Positions 10,693-25,449 of a stretch of 64,000 nucleotides of DNA are shown here, one piece after another. Below the pieces are notes generated by a model, which saw nothing but the letters and a program-made list of their open reading frames with translations, was not told the DNA's origin and made no database searches. Numbering within the stretch: position 1 is the stretch's first letter; every line of letters starts with the position of its first letter. The stretch covers positions 48,592-112,591 of IMG/VR virus record IMGVR_UViG_3300028837_001424. One strand, 5' to 3'. Source of the DNA: a virus. The translations under genes and the position numbers were made by a program.

Positions 10693-11526
10693 ATGAACAA
10701 AATTATGGGTTTCATTGAGCATTTATTGGGCTGGGAAATTGAAAAAAAGCCCAACAAAACAGAAAATCGCTTGACAAACAGGCGAATACCTATGAATAAG
10801 ATTGCGGTTATTATACCCGCCAGACTTGCATCAACGAGATTTCCTCGCAAGGCCTTGGCCGATATATATGGAAAGCCCGTGATACAAAGAGTTTACGAGG
10901 CGGCTAGCCAAGCCAAAGGTATAGCTGACGCATTTGTTGCGACGCCCGATGTTGAATTGGCAGAGGTCGTCGAATCCTTTGGTGGCAAGTATATTATGAC
11001 TGGTCCACAAGACACTTGTCTAGGAAGATGCTCGGAGGCAATGAGAGACGACGCACTTTTTGATTATTATGGGGCAGTTATTGCACAGGGCGACGAGCCT
11101 ATGTTGAAGCCCGAAATGCTTGATGTAGCAGTTGAGGCACTTGGCAAGTATGGTGTTTGTTGGTTAGTAAAAAAGATTCTGCCCCATGAAGATCCAACCG
11201 ACATCAATATGATAAAGTGTGCTTTGAATAGTAACGGCAATATTATTTATGTTTCGCGCGGGGCAATTCCTATCCCTACGCCTGAAGGAGACCATGACTT
11301 TATACCAACTTATTATAAACAAGTAGGCGTAGTCGCATTTGGCAGAAGAATGCTAATCGAATTCAATAATCTTGAAAGAGGACCACTGGAGAAATGCGAG
11401 GGTATAGATTTGCTCAGATTTCTTGAGCATGGCGTAATAGTAAGTTCGGCTCTTTCGCCCTATGATACACAATCGCTTGACACCCCAGAAGATTTGGAAC
11501 GAATACTGGACATGTGGCCTAAATGA
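10693..11526 (+). CDS. KdsB-like CMP-sugar synthetase (cytidylyltransferase)
   Basis: From about residue 34 the product reads as 3-deoxy-manno-octulosonate cytidylyltransferase: IIPARLASTRFPRKALADI (CTP loop), VFVATPD-like strand, VIAQGDEPM in place of VQGDEP, YKQVGVVAF and the closing SLDTPEDLERI. KdsB activates Kdo with CTP. The 33-residue extension before ATG 10792 is absent from the family; ATG 10693 has the better ribosome site, ATG 10792 the better family length. A Kdo or Kdo-like sugar may join the glycan. Confidence 0.8.
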   Translation: MNKIMGFIEHLLGWEIEKKPNKTENRLTNRRIPMNKIAVIIPARLASTRFPRKALADIYGKPVIQRVYEAASQAKGIADAFVATPDVELAEVVESFGGKYIMTGPQDTCLGRCSEAMRDDALFDYYGAVIAQGDEPMLKPEMLDVAVEALGKYGVCWLVKKILPHEDPTDINMIKCALNSNGNIIYVSRGAIPIPTPEGDHDFIPTYYKQVGVVAFGRRMLIEFNNLERGPLEKCEGIDLLRFLEHGVIVSSALSPYDTQSLDTPEDLERILDMWPK

Positions 11527-12335
11527 ATAATAGAGTTGCAGCCATCATTGTTAATTATAATATGCCCGAAAGAACAGATGCCTTATGTTCTTATATAAAG
11601 GTACATGTTAAATGGCCCTACGATCTTATTGTTGTAGATAATGGTAGTGATCCAAAATATCCGTCCGAATGGACTACCGTTAAGCTTCAACAAAATGTAC
11701 AAACAACAAATGGCTGGTTGTGTGGTGTTGCCTATGCAAAAGGATTAGCTAGTATGCGCAAGGAGCCTTATTTGGGCTACTGGTTCATGATAACAAGTGC
11801 CGAGTTTGTAAAAGAAAGCAAAGACCCGCTTACGCCAATAGCGAATATATTGCTGGATATACCCGACGCGGTTGTGGCCTCGCCGGCGCTTACCAAGGAT
11901 AGCACAACTGCACATGTACAAATGATAACAAGAGGAGGCAACGACCCAAGACGCACATGGCTACTTGATAACATTGCTGCGTTATGGAGGGCAGATTGGC
12001 TCGATTCCATTGGCGGTTTCCCGCCAGAACTTACCATGGCCTGGGGTTGTGATTTTGAAACCTGTTATCTTGCAAGAAAGGCTGGCAAAAGTATCTGGAT
12101 ACACGAGGGCACGCGTGTCAAAAAAATAAGTGACATAGGTTACACAATGGATCGCATGGGAATGACCGCTGAGGAGAGAGGCCCTATGGCCGGTCTTGAA
12201 ATGAGGAATTATCTTGTGCCTAAATACGGCGAAGATTATGACGCAAGACTTCATAAGGAATACACAGACCCAAAATGGTGTAGTCGTGTTACAAGGATAA
12301 ATGAATGGCAGCCTTCTGCCGATAAGGAGAATTAA
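11523..12335 (+). CDS. Family 2 glycosyltransferase, rhamnosyltransferase-like
   Basis: 270 residues, ATGA overlap with the preceding gene. It has AAIIVNYNMPE, LIVVDNGSD and, later, WGCDFETCYLARKAGKSIW, the acceptor-side signature of WbbL-like GT2 enzymes (DxE..YR.R.aG). The central DxD is not evident; the corresponding segment reads FMITSAEF, so metal use may differ. Confidence 0.7.
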   Translation: MNNRVAAIIVNYNMPERTDALCSYIKVHVKWPYDLIVVDNGSDPKYPSEWTTVKLQQNVQTTNGWLCGVAYAKGLASMRKEPYLGYWFMITSAEFVKESKDPLTPIANILLDIPDAVVASPALTKDSTTAHVQMITRGGNDPRRTWLLDNIAALWRADWLDSIGGFPPELTMAWGCDFETCYLARKAGKSIWIHEGTRVKKISDIGYTMDRMGMTAEERGPMAGLEMRNYLVPKYGEDYDARLHKEYTDPKWCSRVTRINEWQPSADKEN

Positions 12336-12336
12336 A

Positions 12337-13203
12337 ATGGCCAAAGACCCTGCAGTGGGACCTATTACTAGATATGACAAATTCGGGAACGCAAGAGTTG
12401 ATCGAGGAGAGGCACTACCCGTTGTTCCAGTAGAGGAAGTAATTGAGTATGCTCCCGAAAAGAAGGACATGAAGACGATCATTTTGGCTGGCGGTCATGG
12501 TACTAGATTGCAGGATGAAACCGAGGGGAAGATCCCTAAGCCATTGGTAAAGATTGGCCTAATGACAATGCTTCAACACATCATTTACCTTTATGAAGGC
12601 CAAGGCAATAGCCAGTTCATAGTGGCGGGTGGCTATAAGGCAGACGCGTTGTTGAAATGGCGAGAAGAATTGCATGATGTGTTTGGGCATCGTGAATTAA
12701 ATGTTCTTATAACCGATACTGGCGTAGAGACGCAGACTGGTGGCCGGCTTCTACGTTTAAAATATTACTTGTCTAAACCGTTCATGATGACCTATGGCGA
12801 TGGCTTGTCTGATATAAATTTATCGGCGCTTGCGGAGTTTCATGATCGAATGGTTATTGATCACAACATTCTTGTTACTTTGACTGCGGTAAGACCGCCA
12901 GCGCGCTTTGGAAATCTTGTAATCGAAAACGGTCTTGCAAAGCTATTTGTAGAAAAATCGCAGGCTACAGGTGGTTGGATCAATGGCGGTTTCTATATTA
13001 TCCAGCCAGATGCTTTGAATTTGATCAGCGGTGATTCCTGTAGATGGGAATATGATGTTTTGCCTACATTGGCAATTCAGGGAAGGCTTGCCGCATACCA
13101 GCATACTGGTTATTTTCAAATGTGCGACACATCGCGAGATCTGGAATCACTGAGAAGTATATGGGAGCTTGGAAATGCCCCATGGGCGAGGTTATTTAAA
13201 TGA
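12337..13203 (+). CDS. rfbF: Glucose-1-phosphate cytidylyltransferase
   Basis: 288 residues, start at ATG 12337. From residue 45: TIILAGGHGTRLQDET (nucleotide loop), IPKPLVKIG, TGGRLLRLKYYL, MTYGDGLSDI, RPPARFGNLV, WINGGFYI and the ending WELGNAPW. These follow RfbF/AscA in order. The enzyme makes CDP-glucose from CTP and glucose-1-phosphate, the first step to CDP-3,6-dideoxyhexoses. A 44-residue N-terminal extension is not part of the usual family. It overlaps the next gene by ATGA. Confidence 0.92.
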   Translation: MAKDPAVGPITRYDKFGNARVDRGEALPVVPVEEVIEYAPEKKDMKTIILAGGHGTRLQDETEGKIPKPLVKIGLMTMLQHIIYLYEGQGNSQFIVAGGYKADALLKWREELHDVFGHRELNVLITDTGVETQTGGRLLRLKYYLSKPFMMTYGDGLSDINLSALAEFHDRMVIDHNILVTLTAVRPPARFGNLVIENGLAKLFVEKSQATGGWINGGFYIIQPDALNLISGDSCRWEYDVLPTLAIQGRLAAYQHTGYFQMCDTSRDLESLRSIWELGNAPWARLFK

Positions 13204-14249
13204 CAGACGATTTGATTAAGCAATTGAAAAACCAACGAGTTTTGGTAACCGGTGCCACTGGTTTTATGGGCCAAAGGCTTGTCGATATTTTATTGAGCGC
13301 GGGAGCGTATGTAAGCGCGCTAGTACTTGACATTGATTTTGCCAGTCGGTTTTATAGAGAAACCTACATGAGTTGTCTGGCCAATCGAATAGAGAAAACC
13401 ATCACCGGTGATCTGCGCAATTACTTTGACTGTGAACGGGCAGTTGCCGAATCGAGACCTACTATCATATTTCATTTGGCGGCCATAACCCAGGTATGCG
13501 ATGCAAGCAGGATGCCTCTACAAGCGTTTGATTCGAACATTATGGGTACGGCCAATCTGCTTGAGGCGGCGCGCAAGATAGCTCCTGGAGAGATTGCAAT
13601 AGTAGTTGCTTCAAGCGATAAAGCGTTTGGTGAACCAATTGACGAGATGCCATTTAATGAAAACTCAGTACTAAACCCTATTCATCCTTACGATGTATCT
13701 AAGGCATCGGCGGATCTGGTTGCGAGATGTTACGCTTTACATTATGGAGAAAAAGTTGCCATTACTCGTTGCGGAAATGTATACGGGCCGGGCGATATCA
13801 ATTGGCAGCGCCTCATACCCGAAGCGATTAGGTGTGGCCTAACTGGTAAAACGCTGATCATTCGTAGCGATGGGTCACTGGTGAGAGAATACAATTATGT
13901 CGATGACATAATTGATGCTTACATTCGGATTGCGCTTTCACTCATGCCTTGGGGCGGTCAACCTGAGCCATGGGCGCTGGGTACATCTTGGACGGTTTCA
14001 GATAATCGAGGACGTATGAGCGTTTTAGAAATAGTAGATAAGATAAGCGCCGTCATAAATCAAGATATCAAAATTGATATATTAGGAAAAGCTCAAGACG
14101 AGACGGGAGAATTGATACTTGAATCTGGTTTAATTAGACGCAAATTGGATTGGCGACCAAAAACGGAACTGCCAGAAGGCCTACGAAAAACTACCAGATG
14201 GCTTGTCAAGCACCTAAGAAGTAGAGGTGAGGTTGTAAAAACGGTATGA
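13200..14249 (+). CDS. rfbG: CDP-glucose 4,6-dehydratase
   Basis: 349 residues, the usual RfbG length. VLVTGATGFMGQ at 14-25 binds NAD; ASSDKAFG at 137-144 and Tyr164-Lys168 (YDVSK) form the active site; ITRCGNVYGPGDINWQRLIPE is diagnostic of the RfbG branch. It turns CDP-glucose into CDP-4-keto-6-deoxyglucose. It overlaps rfbF and the following epimerase-like gene by four bases each. Confidence 0.92.
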   Translation: MTDDLIKQLKNQRVLVTGATGFMGQRLVDILLSAGAYVSALVLDIDFASRFYRETYMSCLANRIEKTITGDLRNYFDCERAVAESRPTIIFHLAAITQVCDASRMPLQAFDSNIMGTANLLEAARKIAPGEIAIVVASSDKAFGEPIDEMPFNENSVLNPIHPYDVSKASADLVARCYALHYGEKVAITRCGNVYGPGDINWQRLIPEAIRCGLTGKTLIIRSDGSLVREYNYVDDIIDAYIRIALSLMPWGGQPEPWALGTSWTVSDNRGRMSVLEIVDKISAVINQDIKIDILGKAQDETGELILESGLIRRKLDWRPKTELPEGLRKTTRWLVKHLRSRGEVVKTV

Positions 14250-14728
14250 ATGGTTTGATTGATGGCGTAAGTGTGACGGATCTAAAAGTTATTAAGGATG
14301 AGCGCGGGGCCGTATGGCATATGCTGCGCGCGGGCAATATGCCATTTTTTGAGCCAATGGGAGAAGTATATTTTTCAATGGTGCGTCCAAATGTTGTAAA
14401 GGCCTGGCACTGTCATAAAGCCATGAGGCTAAATTATTGCTGTGTTGTTGGAGAAATTCAATTAGGATTAGTGGATCTGAGGCTATCCAGTCCAACTTTT
14501 GGCATAGAGAATACAATATATTTAAGTGACGGAATGTTACCGAATTACAAATTAGTTAGCATACCGCCGCTTGTATGGAACGGGTTTAGAAGTCTTGCTA
14601 TAAACAACAATAGCGCGCTTATGGCCAATATGGCCACGCTTCCGCATGATCCAGAAGAAATAGTTAGAGTCCACCCTAGAGAATTTCCAGTAGATTATTA
14701 TTGGGGAGATTACGAAATAGCGGGCTAA
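14246..14728 (+). CDS. RmlC-like sugar epimerase (cupin)
   Basis: 160 residues with a cupin core: VVKAWHCHKAMRLNYCCVVGEI resembles the KaWHxHxxQ segment of RmlC 3,5-epimerases, and the closing PREFPVDYYWGDYE fits RmlC-like ends. Beside RfbF, RfbG and RfbH it could be an AscE-type 5-epimerase on the way to CDP-ascarylose, or epimerise a dTDP or CDP keto sugar. The exact reaction is inference. Confidence 0.75.
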   Translation: MNGLIDGVSVTDLKVIKDERGAVWHMLRAGNMPFFEPMGEVYFSMVRPNVVKAWHCHKAMRLNYCCVVGEIQLGLVDLRLSSPTFGIENTIYLSDGMLPNYKLVSIPPLVWNGFRSLAINNNSALMANMATLPHDPEEIVRVHPREFPVDYYWGDYEIAG

Positions 14729-14769
14729 TTGCGCCCAGGCACGCAGGAGCGTGTAGGAGACGATTTTTG

Positions 14770-14805
14770 ATGGAAAACATGATACAGGACACCTTAATCC
14801 GATGA
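14770..14805 (+). CDS. Possible 11-residue leader peptide
   Basis: ATG 14770 follows a strong TAGGAGA site, like the one before 586, and reads 11 codons to a TGA at 14803 that overlaps the start of the next gene as ATGA. The next gene has no other good ribosome site, so this short frame may serve to couple its translation. It could also be a decayed gene end. Confidence 0.35.
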   Translation: MENMIQDTLIR

Positions 14806-15167
14806 TGATCATTGTAAACTGTCGGGCGCTATATTCTTGCCCATGGATTTCATATTTACTCAGTGAGCTACAACCAGCCGAAAATCAGGTTGTAGTATGC
14901 GGGATGCTCTCCGACTATGACAGCGGCAAGATTGAAGCCGCCAAAGCAGCGTTCCGAGCGATAGATTACGAGATCTGCCAGGATAATAACTTGCGTAGTC
15001 ATGTTGCAATGCTCAATCTATTGACAAATCGGCACCAGGAAAAGACGGGCGACTTCCTGCTTGTAAGCAGTATACCTGCCGATCAGGAAGCCGCCGTATC
15101 GATCGGCATGGAATATATTCAACCGGAGTTGTTCGATGTAGTTTATAAAGGATTGATTAATGGCTAA
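14802..15167 (+). CDS. Hypothetical protein, HAD-like C-terminal segment
   Basis: 121 residues. The final part (DFLLVSSIPADQEAAVSIGMEYI) resembles the end of HAD-type phosphatases, where a GDSxxDxxAAxxxGM segment is found, but the nucleophile DxD near the start is not visible. It may be a reduced or inactive HAD-like protein. It overlaps rfbH by 8 bp. Confidence 0.5.
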   Translation: MMIIVNCRALYSCPWISYLLSELQPAENQVVVCGMLSDYDSGKIEAAKAAFRAIDYEICQDNNLRSHVAMLNLLTNRHQEKTGDFLLVSSIPADQEAAVSIGMEYIQPELFDVVYKGLING

Positions 15168-16476
15168 TAAGCAATCAAGGCTTAAGCTCCAAATAGCCGG
15201 TCTGGCTGATATCTACGCCGAGAGAGAGTATCGAGGCCAGGAAGAATTCAAGGCTGGAAAAACCTATATACCTCCAAGCGGAAAAGTTGTTCGAGGCCTA
15301 GAGGCGGCGTATGGCGTAGAGGCCGTTCTTGACGGTTGGCTTACGGAGGGCCGTTGGGTTGATCAATTCGAAAAGAAACTAGCGTCTTACATCAGCGTCA
15401 GATATGCATCAATGTGTAACTCAGGATCATCGGCAAATCTATTAGCTATTAGTGCGTTGATGTCCCCCAAGTTCAAGAAGCGCCTTAAGCCTGGCGACGA
15501 GGTGATTGTTGCCGCGGCCGGCTTCCCAACAACGCTCAACCCCATCATTCAAAAAGGATTAATTCCGGTATTTGTCGATGTAGAGCTAGGGACTTATGTG
15601 CCAACCATAAAGATGATCAAGAACGCTATGACAGATAAAACGCGCGCCATCTTCTTAGCCCATACGCTCGGCAACCCAGTTTCCATTGCAAAATATTGCC
15701 AAAAATGGCAAGATACTGGCATATATTTGATTGAGGATAATTGTGACGCACTTGGCTCTACACTAAGGGGTAAGCGCACTGGCTCCTTTGGCATTATGGC
15801 GACTCACAGCTTCTATCCTGCACATCACATTACTACAGGTGAGGGCGGTGCGGTGGTTACGAATAAACCTAGCGTGAAGAAGATTGTTGAAAGCTACCGT
15901 GACTGGGGGCGAGCTTGTTGGTGTAAACCGGGCAAAGAAAATACGTGTGGCAAGCGCTTCGAGGGCAAGTTTGGAAAATTACCAGAGGGCTATGATCATA
16001 AATACGTATATTCACATATCGGCTACAATCTAAAAAGCACTGACATCCAGGCGGCCATAGGTTTAGCCCAGCTTACAAGATTAGATCAATTTAAAATGAT
16101 AAGATGCAGAAACTTCGCTTTTTTGCTAGAAATCTTAAAGGATTATAGCGATCTTATCATCTTGCCCGAAGCAACCAAAAACTCTGAGCCATCGTGGTTT
16201 GGTTTTCCCATCACGATACGACCAAAAGCGCCGTTTGCTCGCAAAGAAATGATTGAGTATCTCAACAGGCGCAAGATTGGAACGCGTCTTTTATTCGGAG
16301 GCAATTTATTAAAGCAGCCAGCTTATGAGGGTATAAAGTATCGCCATTTTTCAAGACTAAAAAACTCAAACCTAATCGCTAGCAATACTTTTTGGATAGG
16401 ATGTTGGCCGGGCATTGACGATGCAAGATTAACTTTCATGGCCGAAGTTCTCCGGGCATTCTTGGAGCAATTTTAA
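15160..16476 (+). CDS. rfbH: CDP-4-keto-6-deoxyglucose 3-dehydratase, PMP and [2Fe-2S] enzyme
   Basis: 438 residues, full RfbH/AscC (E1) length. It belongs to the DegT/StrS aminotransferase fold, but the PLP lysine is replaced by His222 in SFYPAHHITTGEGGA, the hallmark of this branch. Cys195, Cys253, Cys255 and Cys263 have the known X57-X1-X7 spacing of the [2Fe-2S] ligands. It removes the C3 hydroxyl of CDP-4-keto-6-deoxyglucose. The partner reductase (RfbI/AscD) is not in the window and may come from the host. Confidence 0.94.
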   Translation: MANKQSRLKLQIAGLADIYAEREYRGQEEFKAGKTYIPPSGKVVRGLEAAYGVEAVLDGWLTEGRWVDQFEKKLASYISVRYASMCNSGSSANLLAISALMSPKFKKRLKPGDEVIVAAAGFPTTLNPIIQKGLIPVFVDVELGTYVPTIKMIKNAMTDKTRAIFLAHTLGNPVSIAKYCQKWQDTGIYLIEDNCDALGSTLRGKRTGSFGIMATHSFYPAHHITTGEGGAVVTNKPSVKKIVESYRDWGRACWCKPGKENTCGKRFEGKFGKLPEGYDHKYVYSHIGYNLKSTDIQAAIGLAQLTRLDQFKMIRCRNFAFLLEILKDYSDLIILPEATKNSEPSWFGFPITIRPKAPFARKEMIEYLNRRKIGTRLLFGGNLLKQPAYEGIKYRHFSRLKNSNLIASNTFWIGCWPGIDDARLTFMAEVLRAFLEQF

Positions 16477-17531
16477 TGACTTCATACAAAATAGATCTCT
16501 TAGCAACTCATGGAAGTCCATTGGGTGTGACACCGCCAGACATTTATGGACACGGTGTTGGGGGTGCCGAATTAGCCATGATGACTCTAATGCAAACATT
16601 TGCCGAGAGGGGCCATCAGGTGCGCGTTTTCAATGACCCAAAGAAACCTGGGGAATATGATGGTGTGCAATATCTATTCCGTAATCAATTTAAGCCAAAA
16701 GATAAAAGGGATGTTCTTATTCCATTTAGACAACCCAACGCATTAGTTAAGGCTTCCCGTGCCGCAAAGGGAAAATTTTGGTGGTCCACTGATCAATACA
16801 CAATTGGAGATTACGCGAAGTTTTCAAAGGTAGTTGATTTTTGCGTAACGATTAGCCCACATCATACTGAGTACCATAAAAACCGTTATGGTATACCGGA
16901 TGAAAAAATAGGCCATATCGACTTAGGAGTTCGCCTTGCAGACTACGACATTAAAGTAGATAAAGTTCCAGGCAGAATGATATTTTGTAGCGTACCGGCC
17001 AGAGGTCTTATGATCCTTCACTCGGCATGGCCACTTATACGGCGAAAAGCGCCGAAGGCGACTCTGGTTATAACAAGCGATTATGCTCTTTGGGGAGCAG
17101 GCGGCGGAGGGACTGCTAAATGGCGGATTCATTGGGTTGGGATGGAGGGCGTAAATTATGTCGGAAATGTTCCTCGTCGCGAGCTTATCAAATACCAACT
17201 AGAGGCCGAGGTTTTACCATATACTTGTACATATGACGAGCTATTTTGTCTCTCAGTCGCGGAGTGTCAAGTTGCCGGCGCAATGCCTGTTACTACAGAT
17301 GCGTCGGCACTTAAAACCACAAATCAATTCGGAATAAAGGTTTCTGGAGATCCTACAACGCCTCAGTTTGTAGAGGAGTTTTCTGATCGAGTAGCCGCGC
17401 TCGTTACTACAGAGAGACAATTTCTAGAAGCCAGACGCGCAAGCATGATTGCGGCTGCCAAGTCTCGATTTGATTGGCATGTAATTGCCGAAAAGTGGGA
17501 AAAACTGTTTGAGGATGGGAGGATTAAGTGA
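16476..17531 (+). CDS. GT4-like glycosyltransferase
   Basis: 351 residues with a GT-B layout. HGVGGAELAMMTLMQTFAERG is the N-terminal G-rich segment and DELFCLSVAECQVAGAMPV is the donor-site E-x7-E signature of GT4. TAATG overlap at its start and GTGA overlap at its end tie it to the neighbours. Donor unknown. Confidence 0.8.
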   Translation: MTSYKIDLLATHGSPLGVTPPDIYGHGVGGAELAMMTLMQTFAERGHQVRVFNDPKKPGEYDGVQYLFRNQFKPKDKRDVLIPFRQPNALVKASRAAKGKFWWSTDQYTIGDYAKFSKVVDFCVTISPHHTEYHKNRYGIPDEKIGHIDLGVRLADYDIKVDKVPGRMIFCSVPARGLMILHSAWPLIRRKAPKATLVITSDYALWGAGGGGTAKWRIHWVGMEGVNYVGNVPRRELIKYQLEAEVLPYTCTYDELFCLSVAECQVAGAMPVTTDASALKTTNQFGIKVSGDPTTPQFVEEFSDRVAALVTTERQFLEARRASMIAAAKSRFDWHVIAEKWEKLFEDGRIK

Positions 17532-18814
17532 TTTTATTTATTAGCGACTTCGATTTTAGGGGTTCGGGATATCTGCACATAGCAACAAGCTTGTGCAACG
17601 AGTTGGCGACTAGACATGGTAGAAAAGTTACTGCGTTGGGCATCGGCTACGACCGATCACAACACAATTGGCCCTTTTCGATTATTCCAGTTCGTCAGCG
17701 CGAATGGGGAAGACATATTCCAGCCATGGTCCATAACTTTATCCAGATGGGGAAATCTGGCCAATGGGATGAAGTAGAGGCGATTGTTGTTGCCTTAGAT
17801 ATTCCTATGCACGCAAATATGATGAAGATCAAAAGGGAAAACACGCCCTATATAGGCATCTTTCCAATTGAGAGCGGCCCTTTATGCAATACATGGGACT
17901 TTGCTATTGGTCACATGAGCGAACGATTAGTGATTAGCGAGTTCGGAAAGCATATGATTGACGAGTCTGGCACCAATACCTCCGTTTATATACCTATAGG
18001 AATCGATTCAACATCTTGGCGTATGCCATCGGATGTAGAAAGGAAGGCAATTAGGAAAGGGATGGGTTATGATGAAGATCAGTTTGTGGTTCTGACGGTT
18101 GCCGATAATCAAGAGCGCAAAAACTTGAGCATAGCGGCAGATGTTATAGAGCGCCTCAAAAAACATTTAAACGTGAGGTGGTCGTTGGTGACTCGAATCA
18201 ACTGTCCAGTAGGCTGGAAGCTCGACGATCTCATGCATCAATTCGACATAATTGATCAAGTAGATAAATATGATAAGGGACTGGCGTTTGATCGGCTATG
18301 GATGCTATATGCTTCAGCAGACGCATTCCTGTTGACGAGCAAGGCCGAGGGGCTTTGTTTACCAATCCTAGAAGCAATGGCAACTGGGTTGCCAGTTGTG
18401 GCAACCTCTTGTACCGCAATTCCCGAACACATTTGGGAAGATCCTGATTGGAGTCGCTGTAGTGATGGTATCTGGCACAAAGGAAAGCCACGAGGCCGAA
18501 GAGGCTATGGTTTGAACGTGGAATACACAACTATTGATCCTTGGGGTAACTCCGTTAGAAGCTTTCCAGATCCCAAGCACGCCGTAAAATTGCTAAGGAA
18601 GATCGCCAAGATGAAGCCGTCTCAAAAGCAGGATTTCATTCAACCAGGTAGGGACTATGCCGTTGGTCGAACTTGGCAACGAGCAGGAAATGTACTGGAA
18701 GAGACGCTCAAACGGGTGATCAAAAAGGCGCAACCAAAAGATGAGCCTGGAACTGTGATACCATCATCACAGCCAAGGGTGATACCCGAAATAACAGAGG
18801 AGAATTCGGTATGA
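17528..18814 (+). CDS. GT4 family glycosyltransferase
   Basis: 428 residues. SGYLHIATSLCNELATRHG matches the GT4 N-terminal loop, VLTVADNQERKNL the linker strand, and SKAEGLCLPILEAMATGLPVV the E-x7-E donor site. An extra Arg/Gly-rich loop near 315-330 and a charged, Pro-rich tail of about 30 residues follow the catalytic core. ATGA overlap with the next gene. Confidence 0.85.
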   Translation: MILFISDFDFRGSGYLHIATSLCNELATRHGRKVTALGIGYDRSQHNWPFSIIPVRQREWGRHIPAMVHNFIQMGKSGQWDEVEAIVVALDIPMHANMMKIKRENTPYIGIFPIESGPLCNTWDFAIGHMSERLVISEFGKHMIDESGTNTSVYIPIGIDSTSWRMPSDVERKAIRKGMGYDEDQFVVLTVADNQERKNLSIAADVIERLKKHLNVRWSLVTRINCPVGWKLDDLMHQFDIIDQVDKYDKGLAFDRLWMLYASADAFLLTSKAEGLCLPILEAMATGLPVVATSCTAIPEHIWEDPDWSRCSDGIWHKGKPRGRRGYGLNVEYTTIDPWGNSVRSFPDPKHAVKLLRKIAKMKPSQKQDFIQPGRDYAVGRTWQRAGNVLEETLKRVIKKAQPKDEPGTVIPSSQPRVIPEITEENSV

Positions 18815-19710
18815 GCAAGCGCACAAGGGCAAGAAAGCCAAAACAGGGAAGAGCAAGAAAGAAACAAGGACCAGCGCCGAAAACATTGGTTGATATCTGT
18901 ATGCTGGTCTTTGGTGAGTGGGGGTTACTCTCAAAAGCTATCAGGGCGATTCCGGCTGCAGCCGAGGGGCTGAATGCCAGCTATCGAGTCATAGTCGTCG
19001 ATAATGGCACACCTGATTGGGAGACTGAGGAAAAGGAAATTGTAACGGCCAAGGAACAATCAGCACCAATTAAGGAACTGCTTAGGCCACAGGACATCTT
19101 TTTTAGGCTCGATGAAAACAAGGGCTTCCCCGGTGGTTACAACGTCGCGGTCGGCAAGGGGCGCTCGCCGCTTATTCTCATCTTGACTTCAGACGTTTTC
19201 CTGTTTCCTGGCGCGATTACAAAACTTGTTAGCGTTCTGGACGATCCTGAAGTTGGTATCGCAAGCCCGATGTTGCTCTATCCAGCGGACGAATCTCCCC
19301 ACGGGCCTCCTGGTAGCGTGCAGCATGCCGGCATTGGATTCGATATTCGAGGCGATCCCTATCATATTTTCATGGGTTGGCAGCCAGATCATGAGAAGGT
19401 AAATCAGCGTAGAGAGTTACAAGCGGTTACGGGAGCATGTATTCTAACTCGGCGTGCTTTATGGCAAAGAATAGGCGGCTTCTCTGAGCTTTATAATCAG
19501 GGAACATTTGAGGATATGGAGCTTGCATTTGCCATCCGCCAAATGGGCTACAAAATAATTTTCGAGCCAAGCGCGCGAGGTGAACACTATGTTGGAGGTT
19601 CCATAAAACATGGTGCTATGAGGCCGGGTTTTAATCTCGCATTAAATTCAACAATTTTCCGTGGCCGTTGGGCACCATCTCTGAAATGGGATACTTATCG
19701 ATTTTATTGA
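18811..19710 (+). CDS. Family 2 glycosyltransferase, WbbL-like, with basic N-terminus
   Basis: 299 residues. The first 25 are rich in Lys and Arg. Then come RVIVVDNGTPDWE, NKGFPGGYNVAVG, LILTSDVFLF (SDV metal site), VTGACILTRRALWQRIGGF and FEDMELAFAIRQMGYKI, the WbbL order. It is the last gene of the cassette: its TGA at 19708-19710 is followed without a gap by the five-base repeat array. Confidence 0.82.
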   Translation: MSKRTRARKPKQGRARKKQGPAPKTLVDICMLVFGEWGLLSKAIRAIPAAAEGLNASYRVIVVDNGTPDWETEEKEIVTAKEQSAPIKELLRPQDIFFRLDENKGFPGGYNVAVGKGRSPLILILTSDVFLFPGAITKLVSVLDDPEVGIASPMLLYPADESPHGPPGSVQHAGIGFDIRGDPYHIFMGWQPDHEKVNQRRELQAVTGACILTRRALWQRIGGFSELYNQGTFEDMELAFAIRQMGYKIIFEPSARGEHYVGGSIKHGAMRPGFNLALNSTIFRGRWAPSLKWDTYRFY

Positions 19711-19873
19711 CCCTGCCGTGCCAAGCCCAACCTAACATCGCCAGACCTCGCATCGCCAAGCCGTACTCCGCCGCGAACCGCCTAGCCATGCCTCGTTTAT
19801 AATTCATTCCTAGCCTCGCCACACCGCACCAAACACTGCGCCACCTAGCCGGACACCGCCCCACCTTGCCCTA
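19711..19873. repeat. Degenerate pentanucleotide array A (CCNNR)
   Basis: Thirty in-phase five-base units in two blocks: 17 units at 19711-19795 and 13 at 19809-19873, split by an AT-rich 13-mer at 19796-19808 with core ATAATT. All 30 units end in a purine and 23 begin CC, while the middle bases vary. On the minus strand the unit is YNNGG. It starts directly after a glycosyltransferase stop codon and lies 3' of the RAMP-like gene on the other strand. A period of five rules against coding. Confidence 0.85.
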
Positions 19874-19875
19874 AC

Positions 19876-19903
19876 TGGGGAGAGTTCTCACATACTCTCC
19901 CCA
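19876..19903. terminator. Hairpin between convergent genes
   Basis: TGGGGAGAGT at 19876-19885 is perfectly complementary to ACTCTCCCCA at 19894-19903, with an 8-base loop. It sits between array A and the stop of the minus-strand RAMP-like gene, so it could end transcription from either side. A U-tract is lacking on both strands. Confidence 0.55.
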
Positions 19904-19910
19904 ATTCGAA

Positions 19911-20507
19911 TCAAAGTATCGAAACTTCGAATCGTCCATATGGCCCGCCCTTTGCAGGACGCCAATCGCCAAGACCTACAGCGTTGCCAGCCAGTTCGAG
20001 CCAGTGGATGAGTCTGTCTTTATCCACAAACTCTTCGTTGTACTGTAGCTCGCCTTCAATACTCCAATCTTCTGGAATAATTGGGCGAGTGCGCATGACG
20101 GTAGCCTGCCCGACACGAACGCCAATGCGGAAGCGGAAGCGTTCATCTTTCCACAGTTCCTTGGGATCTTTAGGACCGTCGTATTGAAGGACATAGTGGT
20201 GGTCACAAAATATACCAACACCTGCTGCCTTTCCTTCCTTCTCCATACGAGCGGCGCTACCCCTGCCAGCCAAGGCCGCCTTTAGTAATCGACCTGGAAT
20301 GACAGGCACTCCGTCATTGATGTATAGCGCACCCATAAACTCAAGGCGCGCCATTTCCTCGAAATCCTTCTCAGTCTTCTTGCGCTGAGAACTCACCTTC
20401 TTGAGCTTTTTTGCCCAAGTATTCAATGGATCTGCTAGCTGTCCATTGTGGAGGATCAGGGGGCTGATCCCCGTCAAACGAAATTTCAGAGTCTTCAGGA
20501 CGTTCAT
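19911..20507 (-). CDS. RAMP-like phage protein A
   Basis: Start set at ATG 20507; 198 residues. It has FRLTGISPLILHNGQ, then KKTEKDFEEMARLEF, a VIPGRLLKAALAG segment like the RAMP IPGxSLKGALR loop, VMRTRP, and a C-terminal AGNAVGLGDWRP...GRFEV, which resembles the Gly-rich RAMP loop. The same order recurs in 23240-23878. RAMP proteins, including Cas7, bind RNA; that fold here is my inference from motifs. The gene starts 137 bp inside the HNH gene in another frame. The family is frequent in phages from memory but has no assigned role. Confidence 0.7.
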   Translation of the reverse strand: MNVLKTLKFRLTGISPLILHNGQLADPLNTWAKKLKKVSSQRKKTEKDFEEMARLEFMGALYINDGVPVIPGRLLKAALAGRGSAARMEKEGKAAGVGIFCDHHYVLQYDGPKDPKELWKDERFRFRIGVRVGQATVMRTRPIIPEDWSIEGELQYNEEFVDKDRLIHWLELAGNAVGLGDWRPAKGGPYGRFEVSIL

Positions 20508-20805
20508 CGAACTTCTCCAATATCTTAACCGGCAAGCCCGCTTCCACATTGTCCTCTATTATCGTTTCGGCTCGACGTGAGTATCGAAGCCCTCTGATAT
20601 ATGAGGTGAGAAAGTCGTGGCATCGACGGCAGACGGTTATGAGATCCTCACCGATCTCTTCTCCGTATCTTTCGTATGTCTTATGATGCACCTCCAATTC
20701 TTCTACACAAGGAACTCCTGTTAATTCGGCAATGCCGAATATTTTTGAAAGTTGACATTCGTAGTTATCTCTTTCTAGGATTGCTTTTCTTACTAGGTTA
20801 TCCAT
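20371..20805 (-). CDS. HNH endonuclease
   Basis: ATG 20805 has GGAG upstream. 144 residues: AILERDNYECQ, then ELEVHHKTYERYGEE and LITVCRRCHDF give the H-N-H metal finger with paired cysteines. The last 45 residues overlap the RAMP-like gene and are Pro, Ser and acid rich, with no domain visible. It is first in a transcript from the promoter at 21228-21256, after a long leader holding array B. Confidence 0.8.
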   Translation of the reverse strand: MDNLVRKAILERDNYECQLSKIFGIAELTGVPCVEELEVHHKTYERYGEEIGEDLITVCRRCHDFLTSYIRGLRYSRRAETIIEDNVEAGLPVKILEKFDERPEDSEISFDGDQPPDPPQWTASRSIEYLGKKAQEGEFSAQED

Positions 20806-20827
20806 AATGGACTCCGAATAAAGTAAT

Positions 20828-21078
20828 CCTTGCCTCGCCCTGTCGTGCCGGACCTTGCCAAACCGTACCAGACCGCGCCCAAACATACACTGCCAGATCC
20901 AGCCACGCCTGGCCGCGCCTCGAATATAATTCCTTCCCTGCCATGCCCCGCCGTATCCCACCGCGCCAGATCGTGCCTAGCCGGACTTCGCCACGCCAAA
21001 CCACGCCTTGAACATAATTGCTGTCCTTGCCGCGCCCCACCAAACCTCTCCATGCAGCACCAAGCCTGGTCGCGCCAA
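20828..21078. repeat. Degenerate pentanucleotide array B (CCNNR)
   Basis: Three blocks of the same unit as array A: 19 units at 20828-20922, 15 at 20936-21010 and about 11 at 21025-21078. They are separated by AT-rich 13- and 14-mers at 20923-20935 and 21011-21024, both holding ATAATT. All 34 units of the first two blocks end in a purine and 27 begin CC. The array lies in the predicted 5' leader (about 415 bases) of the HNH and RAMP-like transcript on the minus strand. Confidence 0.85.
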
Positions 21079-21227
21079 ACCTTAACTTACCGTGCCTCGA
21101 AACCAAAATCCCGCCACCCATTATTCGAGGTTGCCCTACCATGAACAAGCCAAGCTGTAATGGGAAGCGGGAGTCTGATCTCGATAAAAACAAAAGGCTT
21201 GGTAGATGTCCATGGCAGGTTAGTAGA

Positions 21228-21256
21228 AGTGTACCATAGCGGGCACAGTATGTCAA
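21228..21256 (-). promoter_or_regulatory. Sigma-70 promoter for the HNH/RAMP-like module
   Basis: Read on the minus strand: TTGACA (21251-21256), 17 bp, TACACT (21228-21233), with GG before the -10. The sequence upstream of the -35 matches the shared operator found at 22712, 45049, 46648 and 55755 only in its first bases. Confidence 0.75.
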
Positions 21257-21273
21257 GACCAATGTATTAATCG

Positions 21274-21302
21274 TTTAAAACAACCAAATTCCATGATATA
21301 AT
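21274..21302 (+). promoter_or_regulatory. Extended -10 promoter for structured RNA / basic protein
   Basis: TGATATAAT at 21294-21302 is a perfect extended -10 element; TTTAAA lies 17 bp upstream at 21274-21279. It fires divergently from the HNH-module promoter and would start RNA near 21309. Confidence 0.6.
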
Positions 21303-21308
21303 TATCTT

Positions 21309-21868
21309 TGCACTTTACCAAACCAATCGCTTGGTGGCTCGAAGAATACCGTTCTACGGGTTAAAAAAGGCACACACGACAGGTGGCGGTGTGGTTCCAG
21401 GCGATGGGAAGCATAAGGGTCGTGGAGATCGGGCGAATGCGCCGCCTTACCGATCGAGCGCGACATCGTTGGTAGCTCAAAACTACATATCCAGTAGACG
21501 ACGATGTGCGGGCAAGATTCCCGCCAGTGACGTTGATGCTAGCTAGGCCAGTTAGCGGAGTCCTGTGGCCCGAATAATGCGACTGATTGCCGAGAGGTTG
21601 GGAGGATTGGCATCCTCCCCTGAGCGATTGTGTTTGGTGAAGTCATCAGAAAGGAAATTGGTAAATTTCATGGTAAAATAGATTTGCGAGCGCGCCTCTT
21701 CATTGGGCTATATTTCCCCTAATGATGAGAACTACTCCTGAGTAGCGCTTAGCTCAGGAGGCTAAGCTGGTAACAGCGGACGCGGTAGCCGGTGCCGCTA
21801 TACACAGAGACCGGCAATCACTTTGTAACAAAGGAGGCCAACATGACGAACCTTTAGTGAGGTGAATC
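21309..21868 (+). ncRNA. Probable structured RNA or long leader
   Basis: About 560 bases without a convincing gene, led by the promoter above. Stable hairpins include GCGGG/CCCGC near 21510, GGGAGGA/TCCTCCC near 21600, and CTCCTGAG/CTCAGGAG with a ten-base loop near 21740. A CTTTG/CAAAG hairpin overlaps the AAAGGAGG site at 21832. The size and hairpin density suggest either a large ornate ncRNA or a regulatory 5' UTR for the basic protein that follows. No known RNA class recognised. Confidence 0.45.
21843..21857 (+). CDS. Possible four-residue upstream ORF
   Basis: An AAAGGAGG site precedes ATG 21843, which reads only four codons before TAG at 21855-21857. A second site (GAGGTGA) then leads to the basic protein at 21869. 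The layout resembles a regulatory upstream ORF, though chance is possible. Confidence 0.3.
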   Translation: MTNL

Positions 21869-22072
21869 ATGTCCAAAATTCAGAAAGGCGGTAAGAAAAA
21901 CCGCAAACATGGCCGTGCAGCGCGCAAGCCCAAAACTGCACGGTATCGTATTTCCAATCGTCGAGCAAAAAATAAAACCAAAAGAGTTCTGCGTAGCAGC
22001 GGCAAAAAGGCTGCAAAACAATACGCGCGGGAACAAAACACAACTGGCTATCTACTCAAATTGCTAAGTTGA
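21869..22072 (+). CDS. Small very basic protein
   Basis: 67 residues, about one third Lys or Arg, with KKNRKHGRAARKPK, NRRAKNKTKR and SGKKAAKQYAREQ. Start at ATG 21869 with GAGGTGA eight bases upstream. It could be a nucleic-acid-binding or nucleoid-type protein; no family recognised. A terminator follows at 22140-22173. Confidence 0.6.
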   Translation: MSKIQKGGKKNRKHGRAARKPKTARYRISNRRAKNKTKRVLRSSGKKAAKQYAREQNTTGYLLKLLS

Positions 22073-22139
22073 ACACTGATATGTAACAACTTATTGCACG
22101 ATAACATATTTTATGTTATTGCGAATTTTAATGTTAATG

Positions 22140-22173
22140 AAAAAGCCCCTAAGCTGGAAGCCAGGGACTTTTT
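22140..22173. terminator. Bidirectional intrinsic terminator
   Basis: AAAAAGCCCCT at 22140-22150 pairs with AGGGACTTTTT at 22163-22173 with one mismatch, giving a stem flanked by A and T runs that works on both strands. It separates the basic-protein gene from the convergent exported-protein gene. A second hairpin, ATAACAT/ATGTTAT, lies at 22101-22119. Confidence 0.8.
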
Positions 22174-22226
22174 CGTATCGCGCCATTGTGCCACTCCGGC
22201 ACGGTTACATTATATCACAACTGGGC

Positions 22227-22664
22227 TTACTCAGCGACGATTGGCTCAGGGAGCATTTCTCCCATAATGTCGGTTTCTATTTCGGCCAATCTATAAGTAT
22301 CCGTATCAGTAAGATGCTCAAAACCGACTCGGTAATACGTCCGCACGTTTTGATTAAAGCTAACGTAGTCAATCCAGCCGCGAATAACGTAATAATCAAG
22401 AGCGTTAGGCTCATTCTTGTATTCCTTCATGTCACATTCGGACCACTCTTGAAATACTGCTCCCGTCTTATCCCATAGAATATCTTCGATGGTCTTTTGA
22501 GAGCGGCTGCATAGCTGACCCTTAATTGACGGGCCTTGATCACTGGTAGTTGCTTTACCATTTAGTAAATAATGTGCGGAAGTGGCAACGGCATATGCCA
22601 GCAGAATGAGAGTAAAAACGGCAACATATCTTAGACATCCTTTACCGGTCGTATTTTTCTTCAT
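22227..22664 (-). CDS. Membrane-anchored or exported hypothetical protein
   Basis: 145 residues. Residues 12-33 (YVAVFTLILLAYAVATSAHY) form a signal anchor, after a Lys-rich start. The rest is soluble, with two Cys and a YYVIRGWIDYV strand. No family recognised. It has its own promoter at 22688-22716 with the shared operator and may act at the host envelope (inference). Confidence 0.6.
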   Translation of the reverse strand: MKKNTTGKGCLRYVAVFTLILLAYAVATSAHYLLNGKATTSDQGPSIKGQLCSRSQKTIEDILWDKTGAVFQEWSECDMKEYKNEPNALDYYVIRGWIDYVSFNQNVRTYYRVGFEHLTDTDTYRLAEIETDIMGEMLPEPIVAE

Positions 22665-22687
22665 GGTATTTATCCTTTACTGTGATT

Positions 22688-22716
22688 ATGCTACCCGATA
22701 CGGTACAGTATGTCAA
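22688..22716 (-). promoter_or_regulatory. Sigma-70 promoter with shared operator
   Basis: Minus strand: TTGACA (22711-22716), 17 bp, TAGCAT (22688-22693), preceded by GGG. The 21-bp operator at 22712-22732 covers the -35 and extends upstream; it holds two TAC-containing half sites eight bases apart and recurs at 45049, 46648 and 55755. Confidence 0.75.
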
Positions 22717-22742
22717 GTTACCTTGGTACTATCAATAAATAA

Positions 22743-22768
22743 AGAGGCGGGTATATATACCTGCCTCT
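22743..22768 (-). terminator. Intrinsic terminator of the GIY-YIG/RAMP-like transcript
   Basis: AGAGGC...GCCTCT at 22743-22748 and 22763-22768 form a nearly perfect stem with the inner GGTA/TACC arm. On the minus strand a T-rich stretch follows. It would end the transcript that carries array C just before the next promoter. Confidence 0.75.
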
Positions 22769-22806
22769 TGTGCTGTCTGGCAACCAGACGATCACCCACC
22801 ACTGAT

Positions 22807-22859
22807 TGTCAACTTATAAGTTGTCAAATGATGATGGAATGACAACAAATATGTTATCA
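22807..22859. promoter_or_regulatory. Two matching palindromic operator-like sites
   Basis: Two 20-bp palindromes of the form TGWCAAC-N6-GTTRTCA at 22807-22826 and 22840-22859, with centres 33 bp apart (about three DNA turns). The first is a near-perfect dyad with a 14-bp perfect core. The spacing suggests co-operative binding of a dimeric protein. They lie at the 3' end of the 22882-23076 gene, so their target is unclear. Confidence 0.5.
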
Positions 22860-22881
22860 ACAACTAAAGCTCAATGCGATT

Positions 22882-23076
22882 TTAGATCTCATTGATAAAT
22901 TGTCCAAGTCGTTCAACTTTTTCTTGAACAACACTAAAGTTTTTTGCGACACGAGCAACATCTCCAAAAATCAAGCCCCTATTTGCTTTATCAAGAGCTT
23001 TATTAATGTCTTGATACAAGCTCTTGGCAGTCTCGATGGGTTTGTAATTGGCACAGTTCTCACAAGTTTTGTTCAT
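22882..23076 (-). CDS. Small CxxC protein
   Basis: 64 residues, start ATG 23076 with GGAGGT eight bases upstream. Residues 4-9 are a CENC pair; the rest is helical (ALDKANRGL, VVQEKVERLGQFI). It is the last gene of the array C transcript and begins 25 bases after the array. Role unknown. Confidence 0.55.
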   Translation of the reverse strand: MNKTCENCANYKPIETAKSLYQDINKALDKANRGLIFGDVARVAKNFSVVQEKVERLGQFINEI

Positions 23077-23100
23077 CTTAGTTACCTCCGATGTAAAAAG

Positions 23101-23235
23101 CTTTGCTATGCTTTGCTCTGCTTTGCTGCGCTCTGCTGCGCTGCGCTTTGCTAAGCTTTGCTGGGCTCGGCTACGCTGCGCTTGGCTGCGCTCCGCTTGG
23201 CTAGGCTCGGCTGCGCTCTGCTGCGCTGCGCTACG
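23101..23235. repeat. Perfect degenerate pentanucleotide array C (CTNNG x 27)
   Basis: Twenty-seven consecutive five-base units, every one of the form CTNNG on the plus strand (CNNAG on the minus strand), with no insertion or deletion. The two middle bases vary freely. It begins four bases after the stop of RAMP-like gene B and ends before the ribosome site of the 22882-23076 gene. Unlike arrays A and B it has no AT-rich punctuation and uses CT in place of CC. Confidence 0.95.
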
Positions 23236-23239
23236 ACCA

Positions 23240-23878
23240 CTATTCCATTGTTACAGGGTTAGTATCCTTCTCAAGAGTTTGCACAGTCCCGATTTCTTTA
23301 ACTTTCTTCCATTCAACTACTTCAAATGAACCAAAGGTTGGTCTATAGGCACATAGCCCTACGAATATACCGCCACGATTAAACCAATCCTCGGCCTTGG
23401 AAATGCTGAAATACTCATTTTCGTAAATGCTTATATTGAATTTTAATGACCAGGGCAAATCCAAAACGGGACGACTCACATTGACCCTAACTTTTGGGTT
23501 TGGCCTTGCCATTCTTGTATCTATGTAAAATGGAGACTTATTCAAATCTTCGGCGACCTCCAGTTTTACATTGCTTTCTTCGTGTTCTTTTCCATTTTGG
23601 AAAGGAATATATGCGGGTTGCACAGAGATACAACCACGGATCACTGGAGACAAAGTTTTCCACTCTTTGCTATTTACAAACATCCGTAGGCAGGAATGGC
23701 TATCTTTACTCGCCAGAAAGCCTTCGATGCTTGAGCTTGGCAAGCAGACGGTTTTGCCGTCGCGGGGGTCGAGGTAAATTTTTTGCTCGACGGGCGTTTC
23801 GTCCTGCGAGACCCATTTGTCGAACATGATCGGCGTCAGACCGTTTAAGACTACTTGTACTTTCACCATGTTTAGCAT
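23240..23878 (-). CDS. RAMP-like phage protein B
   Basis: 212 residues, ATG 23878 preceded by AAAGGAG. It follows RAMP-like A in order: VVLNGLTPIMFDKW, then CLPSSSIEGFLAS (the IP..S.KG-like loop), SRPVLD, and a C-terminal GGIFVGLCAYRPTFGSFEV. Overall identity is low but these anchors and their spacing agree, so the two are distant paralogues. It starts 173 bp inside the GIY-YIG gene and is followed four bases later by array C. RNA binding is inferred from fold resemblance only. Confidence 0.65.
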   Translation of the reverse strand: MLNMVKVQVVLNGLTPIMFDKWVSQDETPVEQKIYLDPRDGKTVCLPSSSIEGFLASKDSHSCLRMFVNSKEWKTLSPVIRGCISVQPAYIPFQNGKEHEESNVKLEVAEDLNKSPFYIDTRMARPNPKVRVNVSRPVLDLPWSLKFNISIYENEYFSISKAEDWFNRGGIFVGLCAYRPTFGSFEVVEWKKVKEIGTVQTLEKDTNPVTME

Positions 23879-24236
23879 TGTTCTTGCTCCTTTCGCTTAT
23901 AAAGCGGCGCGACTGGTCAACCAATTCTCGGCGCGCATCACTTATTCTTTCTATTAGAGGTTGCTCTTTTCCTTCCAACCAGTTTATTACGAGCTTTAGA
24001 ATTTCATCATCAAGTTTAAATATCTCCCGATCATCAAAGCAATAAGAAGCCAGTAGGCACTTAAGTTCATCTTCGACTTTCAGGGGTTCATCAACTAGGC
24101 TGGCGTGGCATATTGTTAATTTGCTGTTGGCGGCTAAAAAAGCACGATAGCGCCTATTGAAATCGTCGGCTTTTCCTATTTTGAATAGATTATCAAATCC
24201 GAGGTCAAATAGGTAAACGTAGCCGCTAGACATCAT
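23706..24236 (-). CDS. GIY-YIG-like (T5orf172/MUG113-type) nuclease
   Basis: 176 residues. GYVYLFDLGFDNLFKIGKADDFNRRYRAF is the GIY-YIG-like core of the T5orf172 group (YVYL, FKIGKA, R.YR). VEDELKCLLASYCF and REIFKLDDE continue that domain. After residue 100 it becomes helical and then basic (ARRAKNLPRPPRRQNR), the basic part overlapping RAMP-like gene B in another frame. First gene after the promoter at 24257-24285. Confidence 0.75.
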   Translation of the reverse strand: MMSSGYVYLFDLGFDNLFKIGKADDFNRRYRAFLAANSKLTICHASLVDEPLKVEDELKCLLASYCFDDREIFKLDDEILKLVINWLEGKEQPLIERISDARRELVDQSRRFISERSKNNAKHGESTSSLKRSDADHVRQMGLAGRNARRAKNLPRPPRRQNRLLAKLKHRRLSGE

Positions 24237-24256
24237 TCTCCTTCATTTGTAACTTA

Positions 24257-24285
24257 ATCATATCACATACTTGATTATGAGGCAA
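24257..24285 (-). promoter_or_regulatory. Promoter for the GIY-YIG/RAMP-like module
   Basis: Minus strand: TTGCCT (24280-24285), 17 bp, TATGAT (24257-24262). The gene starts at 24236 after AAGGAG. No shared operator is seen here. Confidence 0.65.
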
Positions 24286-24392
24286 ATTTAAATAGACGGT
24301 GCAAATGCTCTACTAACCCATTACAAAAATGGCTAATATAAAGTCGAATTTGAAGTTTTTTCGTCGCGGCAATTTGTGGAGGGATGTGAGAA

Positions 24393-24707
24393 ATGACCGA
24401 GGAACAAGCAACGCAAGGTCCGAAGCTCGATCCGCGCTACAACCCAGCAGTTGAAAATAGCAAGATCAGGATAGAGTTTTCGGGGAATACCGCGCGCATC
24501 GCCGACGTTGGCTTTTACCAAGTTGATTCGTTTCAACTAATTGCGATTGGCGAGTATTTGAAGCAGCGCGGCCTTCAAATGATTGCAATGACTGAGGCTA
24601 AAGTTGCTCAGGACATGATGCGACGTGCCCAAGCCGAAAAAATAGCAGTCGCCGGACGTATTCCTGAGCCTGACGAGCTACCTGCTAACATGAGGCCACC
24701 TGGCTAG
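24393..24707 (+). CDS. Hypothetical protein at the start of the structural operon
   Basis: 104 residues, with GGAGGGATGTGAG before ATG 24393. KIRIEFSGNTARIADVGFYQVDSFQL suggests a small beta fold, and MTEAKVAQDMMRRAQAEK a helix. A short Pro-rich end follows. Its position before the connector gene suggests a head-related role; no family recognised. Confidence 0.6.
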   Translation: MTEEQATQGPKLDPRYNPAVENSKIRIEFSGNTARIADVGFYQVDSFQLIAIGEYLKQRGLQMIAMTEAKVAQDMMRRAQAEKIAVAGRIPEPDELPANMRPPG

Positions 24708-24744
24708 AGATTTTAGCCTCATAAATTGAATAAAGGATTCGACA

Positions 24745-25449
24745 ATGGCTGTGGATTGGGTTCATTTGGCACCCGTTATCCTGACAGACGATCTTTTCTT
24801 TAGTTATATTGGAGATCCGGTTTATACGGGTACTTCAACCCAGCGCGATGCTGCTTATTTAATAGCCGAGCAGGAAATGATCCAAGAGATCAAGACGCCA
24901 CTCTTGCCCACGTCGATGACAGGCACTTGGAGGTATCCAGGTATTTATGGTAACCCAACCATCGTTCTACCTTATCAAAAGATTAATACTGTAGACAGCG
25001 TTGCAATTCTATATGGTGGTGGTACTGGTGTTTGCGGCCTACAAAGTGTCGCCGGCTGCCATCGGATTAAGAGTGATACATATGGATACATTGATGCTCA
25101 TTGTATAGGCAATCTTGCAATATTAAATTGCGGTTGCACTATTACCGATATGTATCAGGTTCGAGTAGCTTTTACGGCTGGTTTATCAACTGGCATCGCC
25201 GCTGATGACAAGTCATTACACATGGCATTGGCGATGATCGCAGAGCAATATTTAACAGAGATTATCGATCCTGGTGCTAGTCCGGGCGGGCCAGGCGCAC
25301 CTGGCATTGTAGGTTGGTCATCATTGGGGTACAGCGAGAAAATGAATCCGGCTGCATTAAAGTTGACTCCAATGGGGGCTAGTGGAAGGATGAATGCGGT
25401 TAGACGTATGGTCCGGCACCTTAAAAAGAAACGTGCCCTGAGGTTCTGA
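24745..25449 (+). CDS. Head-tail connector/adaptor (gp6-like)
   Basis: 234 residues with the layout of gp6-like adaptors: an N-terminal helical unit (AAYLIAEQEMIQEIKTPLL), a beta insertion (QKINTVDSVAILYGGG), then a helical part (LHMALAMIAEQYL) and a basic C-terminus (RRMVRHLKKKRALRF). It would sit under the portal and join the tail. TGATG-type overlap with the next gene. Confidence 0.65.
   Translation: MAVDWVHLAPVILTDDLFFSYIGDPVYTGTSTQRDAAYLIAEQEMIQEIKTPLLPTSMTGTWRYPGIYGNPTIVLPYQKINTVDSVAILYGGGTGVCGLQSVAGCHRIKSDTYGYIDAHCIGNLAILNCGCTITDMYQVRVAFTAGLSTGIAADDKSLHMALAMIAEQYLTEIIDPGASPGGPGAPGIVGWSSLGYSEKMNPAALKLTPMGASGRMNAVRRMVRHLKKKRALRF

Follow-up and report, generated by a model that had tools for sequence, protein, structure and literature searches.

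An uninterrupted AGC/NN array beside a divergent Vipr gene in a viral genome: a probable VIPR-type guide array in which the anchor triplet is changed

The DNA analyzed here, referred to as the window, is a stretch of 64,000 nucleotides from a viral genome record (IMG/VR IMGVR_UViG_3300028837_001424, positions 48,592 to 112,591). As read directly from the sequence, the plus strand carries 27 units of CTNNG at positions 23101-23235, 135 bases without a slip; in GCTNN notation the array starts at 23100 and comprises 27 GCT triplets. The genes flanking the array are all on the minus strand, as are the genes of a second system in the same window (Table 1). The first-pass annotation, which had picked out the 27 perfect consecutive units, described the plus strand. 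The relevant strand is the minus strand, on which the array reads NN-AGC, with AGC in 27/27 units. The count itself was borne out, and from base frequencies the chance of finding 27 such units anywhere in 64 kb is ~5e-46. The 26 inner NN pairs use 11 of the 16 dinucleotides, with an entropy of 2.99 bits. No match to the reversed pattern occurs anywhere in the 112,591-base record, and a skeleton scan over periods 3-12 returned only period-5 stretches, with looser ones at ~19746-19795 and ~20824-21084, plus a period-10 echo of the CTNNG array itself. In the RNA sense, the NN order of the array is GC GC AG GC CG CT CA GG GC CA GC GT CG CC AA TT AA GC GC AG GC AA AG AA AT AA. The run GC GC AG GC fills units 1-4 and again units 18-21, a repetition that may reflect duplication within the array or mark where a second guide begins.

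Table 1. Features of the array locus and of the second system in the window
Feature	Position	Strand	Remarks
Putative AGC/NN guide array	23100..23235	-	27 triplets, uninterrupted
RA, divergent Vipr, RAMP/Cas7-like, 212 aa	23240..23878	-	Ala177 in glycine-rich loop, Val134; phrog_4652 8e-7, jackhmmer family; predicted Csm3/Cas7 fold
GIY-YIG-type ORF (T5orf172), overlaps RA start	23706..24236	-	Pfam 25.8 bits, cut-off 20
64-aa ORF, after array	22882..23076	-	GGAGG 10 nt after last AGC
RB, second Vipr, GGY type, 199 aa	19911..20510	-	Asp182, Arg140; phrog_4652 2.7e-50; SUSP1 Vipr 36pp 1.8e-29; model pLDDT 96.4
HNH ORF, overlaps RB start	20371..20805	-	Pfam HNH
GGY/NN blocks upstream of HNH/RB	20832..21008	-	20832-20880 and 20940-21008; looser units on towards 21100
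GGY/NN block after RB	19710..19880	-	clear at 19710-19793

It had been proposed that the array is noncoding. This fits: on the gene strand, a stop codon (that of RA, 7 nt before the first AGC) precedes the array and the ribosome-binding site of the 64-aa ORF, the following gene, comes after it, although a plus-strand ORF at 23048-23329 runs through the array. No 3' tail is visible after the array (folding z-score of -0.47), there is no Rfam match in 19000-25000, and PADLOC gave no match. Promoter-like sites numbered 8, versus 3.5 in shuffles; a sequence search found no terminator-like site and likewise did not demonstrate a promoter.

The VIPR system, which is RNA-guided and uses a non-contiguous code, was described in a preprint of April 2026 (PMC13142463, bioRxiv 2026.04.26.720920). 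According to the main text of that preprint, VIPR systems consist of RAMP-fold Vipr proteins and vrRNAs built of GGY/NN repeats, in which the NN pairs specify DNA and the fixed triplets anchor the protein. The triplet is worded there as GGY "or a related consensus"; "AGC" is absent from the main text, and the related consensus of fig. S17 may include it, in which case the AGC anchor would already be known. In the PMC literature on VIPR or vrRNA, this was the only preprint found on the subject (PMC13142463).

Both RA and RB match phrog_4652, a PHROGs family of unknown function, and a jackhmmer search over the ORFs of the collected loci joined them in one family, together with 35 of these loci, whose retrieval had relied on the DNA pattern GCTNN only. 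RB alone matches the solved SUSP1 Vipr protein 36pp. RA used alone as a sequence query found no solved structure; a profile of 48 relatives headed by RA matches 36pp at 2.7e-53. A homology search with RA or RB alone against viral contigs found nothing. The RA model (pLDDT 90.4, pTM 0.84) has Cmr/Csm subunits as its best Foldseek matches, with 73 chains at E<=1e-3, and VIA-align likewise returned Cmr/Csm3/Cas7 subunits, at Z 13.1. Judged by sequence profile and by model, RA is a member of the Vipr family (phrog_4652, SUSP1 Vipr), with the predicted fold of CRISPR Csm3/Cas7. In two groups of 398 and 369 genomes, scored with at most 7-8 candidates per genome, 1 and 0 Viprs were found.

Each of the two Vipr genes has a candidate accessory gene overlapping its start, a GIY-YIG-type ORF at RA and an HNH ORF at RB. 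A similar ORF occupies the same place as the GIY-YIG ORF in loci L273 and L317, and homologues of the HNH ORF do so in L260, L355, and L240. Both are possible accessory nucleases and candidates for vap, the accessory gene (vap1-6) that the preprint's main text places beside vipr (PMC13142463). The arrays around HNH and RB are looser than the window array, being GGY with deviating units. Elsewhere in the window, a DNA N6/N4 methyltransferase is fused with an Mrr-type restriction domain in one ORF (41864-43270, minus strand), an AAA ATPase with a match to the BCS1 N-terminal domain is found, in a phage, at 61991-63124 (minus strand), and sugar-related phage genes span 9198-19710 (plus strand), including an MptE-like/sialyltransferase-like protein, a DegT aminotransferase, and glycosyltransferases.

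Among viral contigs, 104 stretches with at least 9 GCTNN units were sorted into 58 plain microsatellites, 1 intermediate, and 45 with variable NN, defined as a maximum entropy of at least 2 bits. A Vipr gene is present in 35/45 of the variable AGC/NN loci, several of which are near copies of one another, versus 0/58 of the microsatellite loci and 0/1 of the intermediate. AGC is on the Vipr strand in 69/74 arrays, and the other five are all in L055. There, at 1412-1729, AGC arrays lie on the strand opposite to a Vipr with the residues Glu and Arg, which predict GGY under the residue rule described below; no second Vipr was found in the L055 record. For the GGY loci, among the matches listed, a Vipr accompanies 91/116 with variable arrays, and 216/218 arrays are on the Vipr strand. 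In the genome collection, a scan that required longer arrays than the viral-contig scan gave at least 130 GCTNN arrays, all those listed being microsatellite-like, with an entropy of at most 1.31.

Common as plain GCTNN microsatellites are in both collections, there is next to no chance that the window array is an ordinary pentanucleotide microsatellite decayed at two positions: decay would strike all five positions, whereas the array keeps three of them in every unit and leaves two near random, and it is variable arrays, not microsatellites, that accompany a Vipr gene and follow its strand. Microsatellite identity is refuted by the split between the variable and microsatellite classes, and the whole unit is not repeated. 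Nor was any support found for the earlier suggestion of a copying process that randomizes two bases; variable NN are what guide information would look like. The accompanying suggestion of selection on a spaced skeleton, with a hint at RNA binding, fits well: the skeleton recurs with other NN in viral contigs, next to a RAMP-fold gene and in that gene's orientation.

AGC arrays were seen in several layouts. In L012, L020, and L078 there are blocks of 7-14 units with spacers of ~40-70 nt; long runs directly after the gene occur in L016 (66 units), L048 (28), L066 (24), L085 (24), and the window (27). The densest set seen is that of L112, where 18 AGC blocks of 7-12 units, mostly 11 nt apart, surround the Vipr at 1637-2377. 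In many relatives, arrays lie on both sides of the Vipr gene. Some NN blocks of 8-10 units are common to different contigs; otherwise the NN differ between loci. For example, the long AGC arrays of L016 (8677-8980) and L034 (2571-2770) differ except for a common run of ten NN units, which would fit the exchange or retention of a guide.

Such an array might instead be an mRNA or DNA binding site for a ring or filament protein, as in TRAP-like operon autoregulation, with no targeting by the NN. Indeed, the window array is placed just ahead of the ribosome-binding site of the 64-aa ORF, and a triplet followed by two free bases is the spacing of TRAP sites. We nevertheless regard this as improbable. 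The neighbor is a RAMP protein, not TRAP; the presence of arrays on both sides of the gene in many relatives is also against it; and the NN vary by locus, yet some blocks are common to contigs, as guides would be. Moreover, the related SUSP1 system is reported, in the main text of the preprint, to guide DNA binding by its NN under a 1-nt skip rule (PMC13142463).

The association of Vipr proteins with two different triplets allows the residues that go with each to be compared. The alignment holds 121 different Viprs: 89 GGY, 28 AGC, and 4 unlabelled, with RB labelled GGY by hand because RA's array lies within the reach of the labelling search. Of the 178 columns, two separate AGC from GGY best: column 760 (rank 1), which exceeds the others by 10.6 sd, and column 704 (rank 2), by 7.9 sd. 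The first of these lies in the glycine-rich loop (Ala177 of RA, Asp182 of RB); in 36pp the loop Asp is part of GDWRP. Column 760 holds 52 Asp, 25 Glu, 5 Thr, 4 Arg, 1 Ala, and 2 gaps in the GGY proteins, and 10 Ala, 7 Gly, 6 Asn, 4 Ser, and 1 Thr in the AGC proteins, giving Asp/Glu in 77/87 versus 0/28. Column 704 (Val134 of RA, Arg140 of RB) has Arg/Lys in 81/87 GGY versus 5/28 AGC proteins. Exceptions to the rule at column 760 are one GGY Vipr with Ala and four with Arg, and RA's nearest GGY relatives carry Thr in the loop, not Asp/Glu.

On systems that had not been used, the residue rule agreed in 8/8 cases (3 AGC, 5 GGY). These held-out Viprs were found elsewhere in the records of AGC or GGY loci, 26/36 records being without a match, and rows L362 and L365 were dropped as repeats of systems already used. 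Ten further loci, from nine named phages and one other genome, all have Asp/Glu at the loop column; this set tests one direction only, and Saal and Brocalys within it are close relatives. Seven of the ten have clear GGY arrays, two have weak ones (7/10 units), and that of phiHSIC is GCA/NN. In this Listonella phage (L472, AY772740.1, ~3639-3900), three GCA/NN arrays lie beside the Vipr gene ORF22, which has Asp and Lys at the code columns. GCA is a third triplet, with G again first.

The arrays themselves also vary. The 469 units of AGC arrays include 414 AGC, 30 AGT, and 13 GGC, and the 1627 units of GGY arrays include 1234 GGC and 262 GGT. The single units that deviate within arrays also point to the pattern R-G-Y. 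The main difference between GGY and AGC lies in base 1, and a carboxylate can form bonds with the Watson-Crick edge when that base is G, though not when it is A; the simplest explanation is therefore that base 1 is read directly.

Alternatively, the array may belong to a VIPR system, but the correlation between residues and AGC or GGY may reflect shared descent only, so that the loop residue does not read base 1. The triplet label is indeed clustered on the tree, changing 11 times on the FastTree tree and 12 times on the IQ-TREE tree, versus 25 when shuffled; at least 6 and 5 of these changes, respectively, are forced by supported branches. A sign test on independent pairs across supported branches had 5-6 pairs only and fell short of 0.05 (p 0.06-0.125), and the contact between loop and base is a predicted one. 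However, all columns share the same tree, yet two of them stand out from the other 176 by the margins given above. In addition, 0 independent pairs at the loop column run in the wrong direction, and the held-out systems followed the rule throughout. Shared descent as the sole cause is therefore unlikely, though a good deal less so than the TRAP-like alternative.

The broader proposition is that VIPR uses more than one anchor code, with base 1 (G/A) read by the residue after the loop glycines, helped by one strand residue, that lineages have switched this base repeatedly, and that some phages, this one among them, carry two Viprs with different codes, which keeps their guides apart; GCA/NN of phiHSIC would be a third code. 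We consider it evenly balanced between true and false. The window record holds one AGC Vipr and one GGY Vipr, whereas by the same profile 48 other records, many of them fragments, hold a single Vipr apiece. Two codes in the same genome would stop guides from pairing with the wrong protein.

At skips 0-3, no target of the window array was found in its own genome or in the examined loci. Three 8-unit seeds from the array, run against viral contigs, gave no target either: they hit 3, 33, and 59 stretches, with matches outside the seed of 28%, 25%, and 24%, i.e., chance. When 281 AGC segments of 11 units were compared with the examined loci, matches of at least 20/22 numbered none at skip 0, none at skip 2, none in the shuffled control, and 8 at skip 1. 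Four of these eight, from the window array at 20/22, were discarded, as they fall in loci fetched by the array's own seeds; the other four come from two arrays of L048. The best pairs a guide of L048 with a 479-aa gene of L026 (near copy in L067) at 21/22 NN bases with skip 1. The skipped base is at codon position 3, ~0.008 such matches are expected by our estimate, and in the L048 array, which has 31 triplets, the match takes up the final 11 inner units. As a sequence match, it weakly supports a 1-nt skip rule for AGC guides.

A second L048 match (L242, 20/22) is not in any convincing gene. The gene matched in L026 looked like a terminase, but PHROGs assigns it to a family of unknown function and Pfam gives only a sub-threshold ResIII match. 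With 493 GGY segments, matches of at least 20/22 numbered 1 at skip 0, 2 at skip 1, 0 at skip 2, and 1 when shuffled, so the published rule is not visible for GGY either in this small DNA set. The guide common to L016 and L034 gave 4 seed matches, none of which extends. Because these two loci share ten units and the one good target match spans 11 inner units, our guess is a guide length of ~10-11 units.

The array is a genuine functional element, and we put at about 0.88 the probability that it serves a VIPR-type RNA-guided system as its guide component, with AGC as an altered anchor triplet. In such a system, the minus strand would be transcribed together with the Vipr gene RA, and copies of RA would bind the RNA, one per AGC triplet, as in the VIPR model. 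The free NN would then pair with DNA in which the same dinucleotides are separated by a single unpaired base, following the skip rule of SUSP1 VIPR. The complex would silence a competing phage or satellite, or cut it if the overlapping GIY-YIG gene is its partner. At the anchor, the loop Asp/Glu of most GGY Viprs is Ala177 in RA and the strand Arg/Lys is Val134, a correlation that is observed directly; from these two residues we infer a contact by which base 1 would be read as A, not G.

Against the VIPR reading are the triplet, which is not GGY, the length of 27 units, the lack of a tail, the lack of a target, and the lack of a structure match for RA alone. The characterized type II VIPR has 9-16 repeats followed by a 3' tail, and the main text reports other array types too (PMC13142463). 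We call the system a variant that would work like VIPR because the protein family and the logic of the array agree, and strict GGY, tail, and length do not; targeting is predicted.

If the anchor triplet is lineage-specific and set by one or two residues, the pairing of guide and protein would be predictable from sequence. Orthogonal VIPRs could then be selected from nature, and single substitutions could test how an early RAMP protein recognized its RNA. That one phage has two codes suggests that such orthogonality matters in nature.

A CRISPR array consists of direct repeats of ~20-40 nt with unique spacers; in contrast, the window array has period 5 only. TRAP, the trp RNA-binding attenuation protein, reads (G/U)AG in ~11 repeats, with the triplets two free nucleotides apart. 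The window array shares this spacing of triplets and differs in having AGC, with a free base before AG and a fixed C after it, in 27 repeats, and a RAMP neighbor. The RAMP subunits of class 1 CRISPR systems (Csm3, Cmr4, Cas7) resemble RA in its predicted fold, and by analogy with them a filament on the guide RNA is the likely mode of action. Unlike these, the window array has no CRISPR repeats and its guide would be read with gaps, and the sequence identity is 10-19%. The closest likeness is to VIPR, with a RAMP-fold phage protein of the same family and pentamers that combine a constant triplet with free NN, adjacent to the gene and in its orientation, in a phage setting. It departs from VIPR in having AGC in all units, in a single run of 27 rather than 9-16, in the absence of a visible tail, and in the overlapping GIY-YIG ORF. 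AGC is one base from GGC, and the second system of the same phage uses GGY with deviating units.
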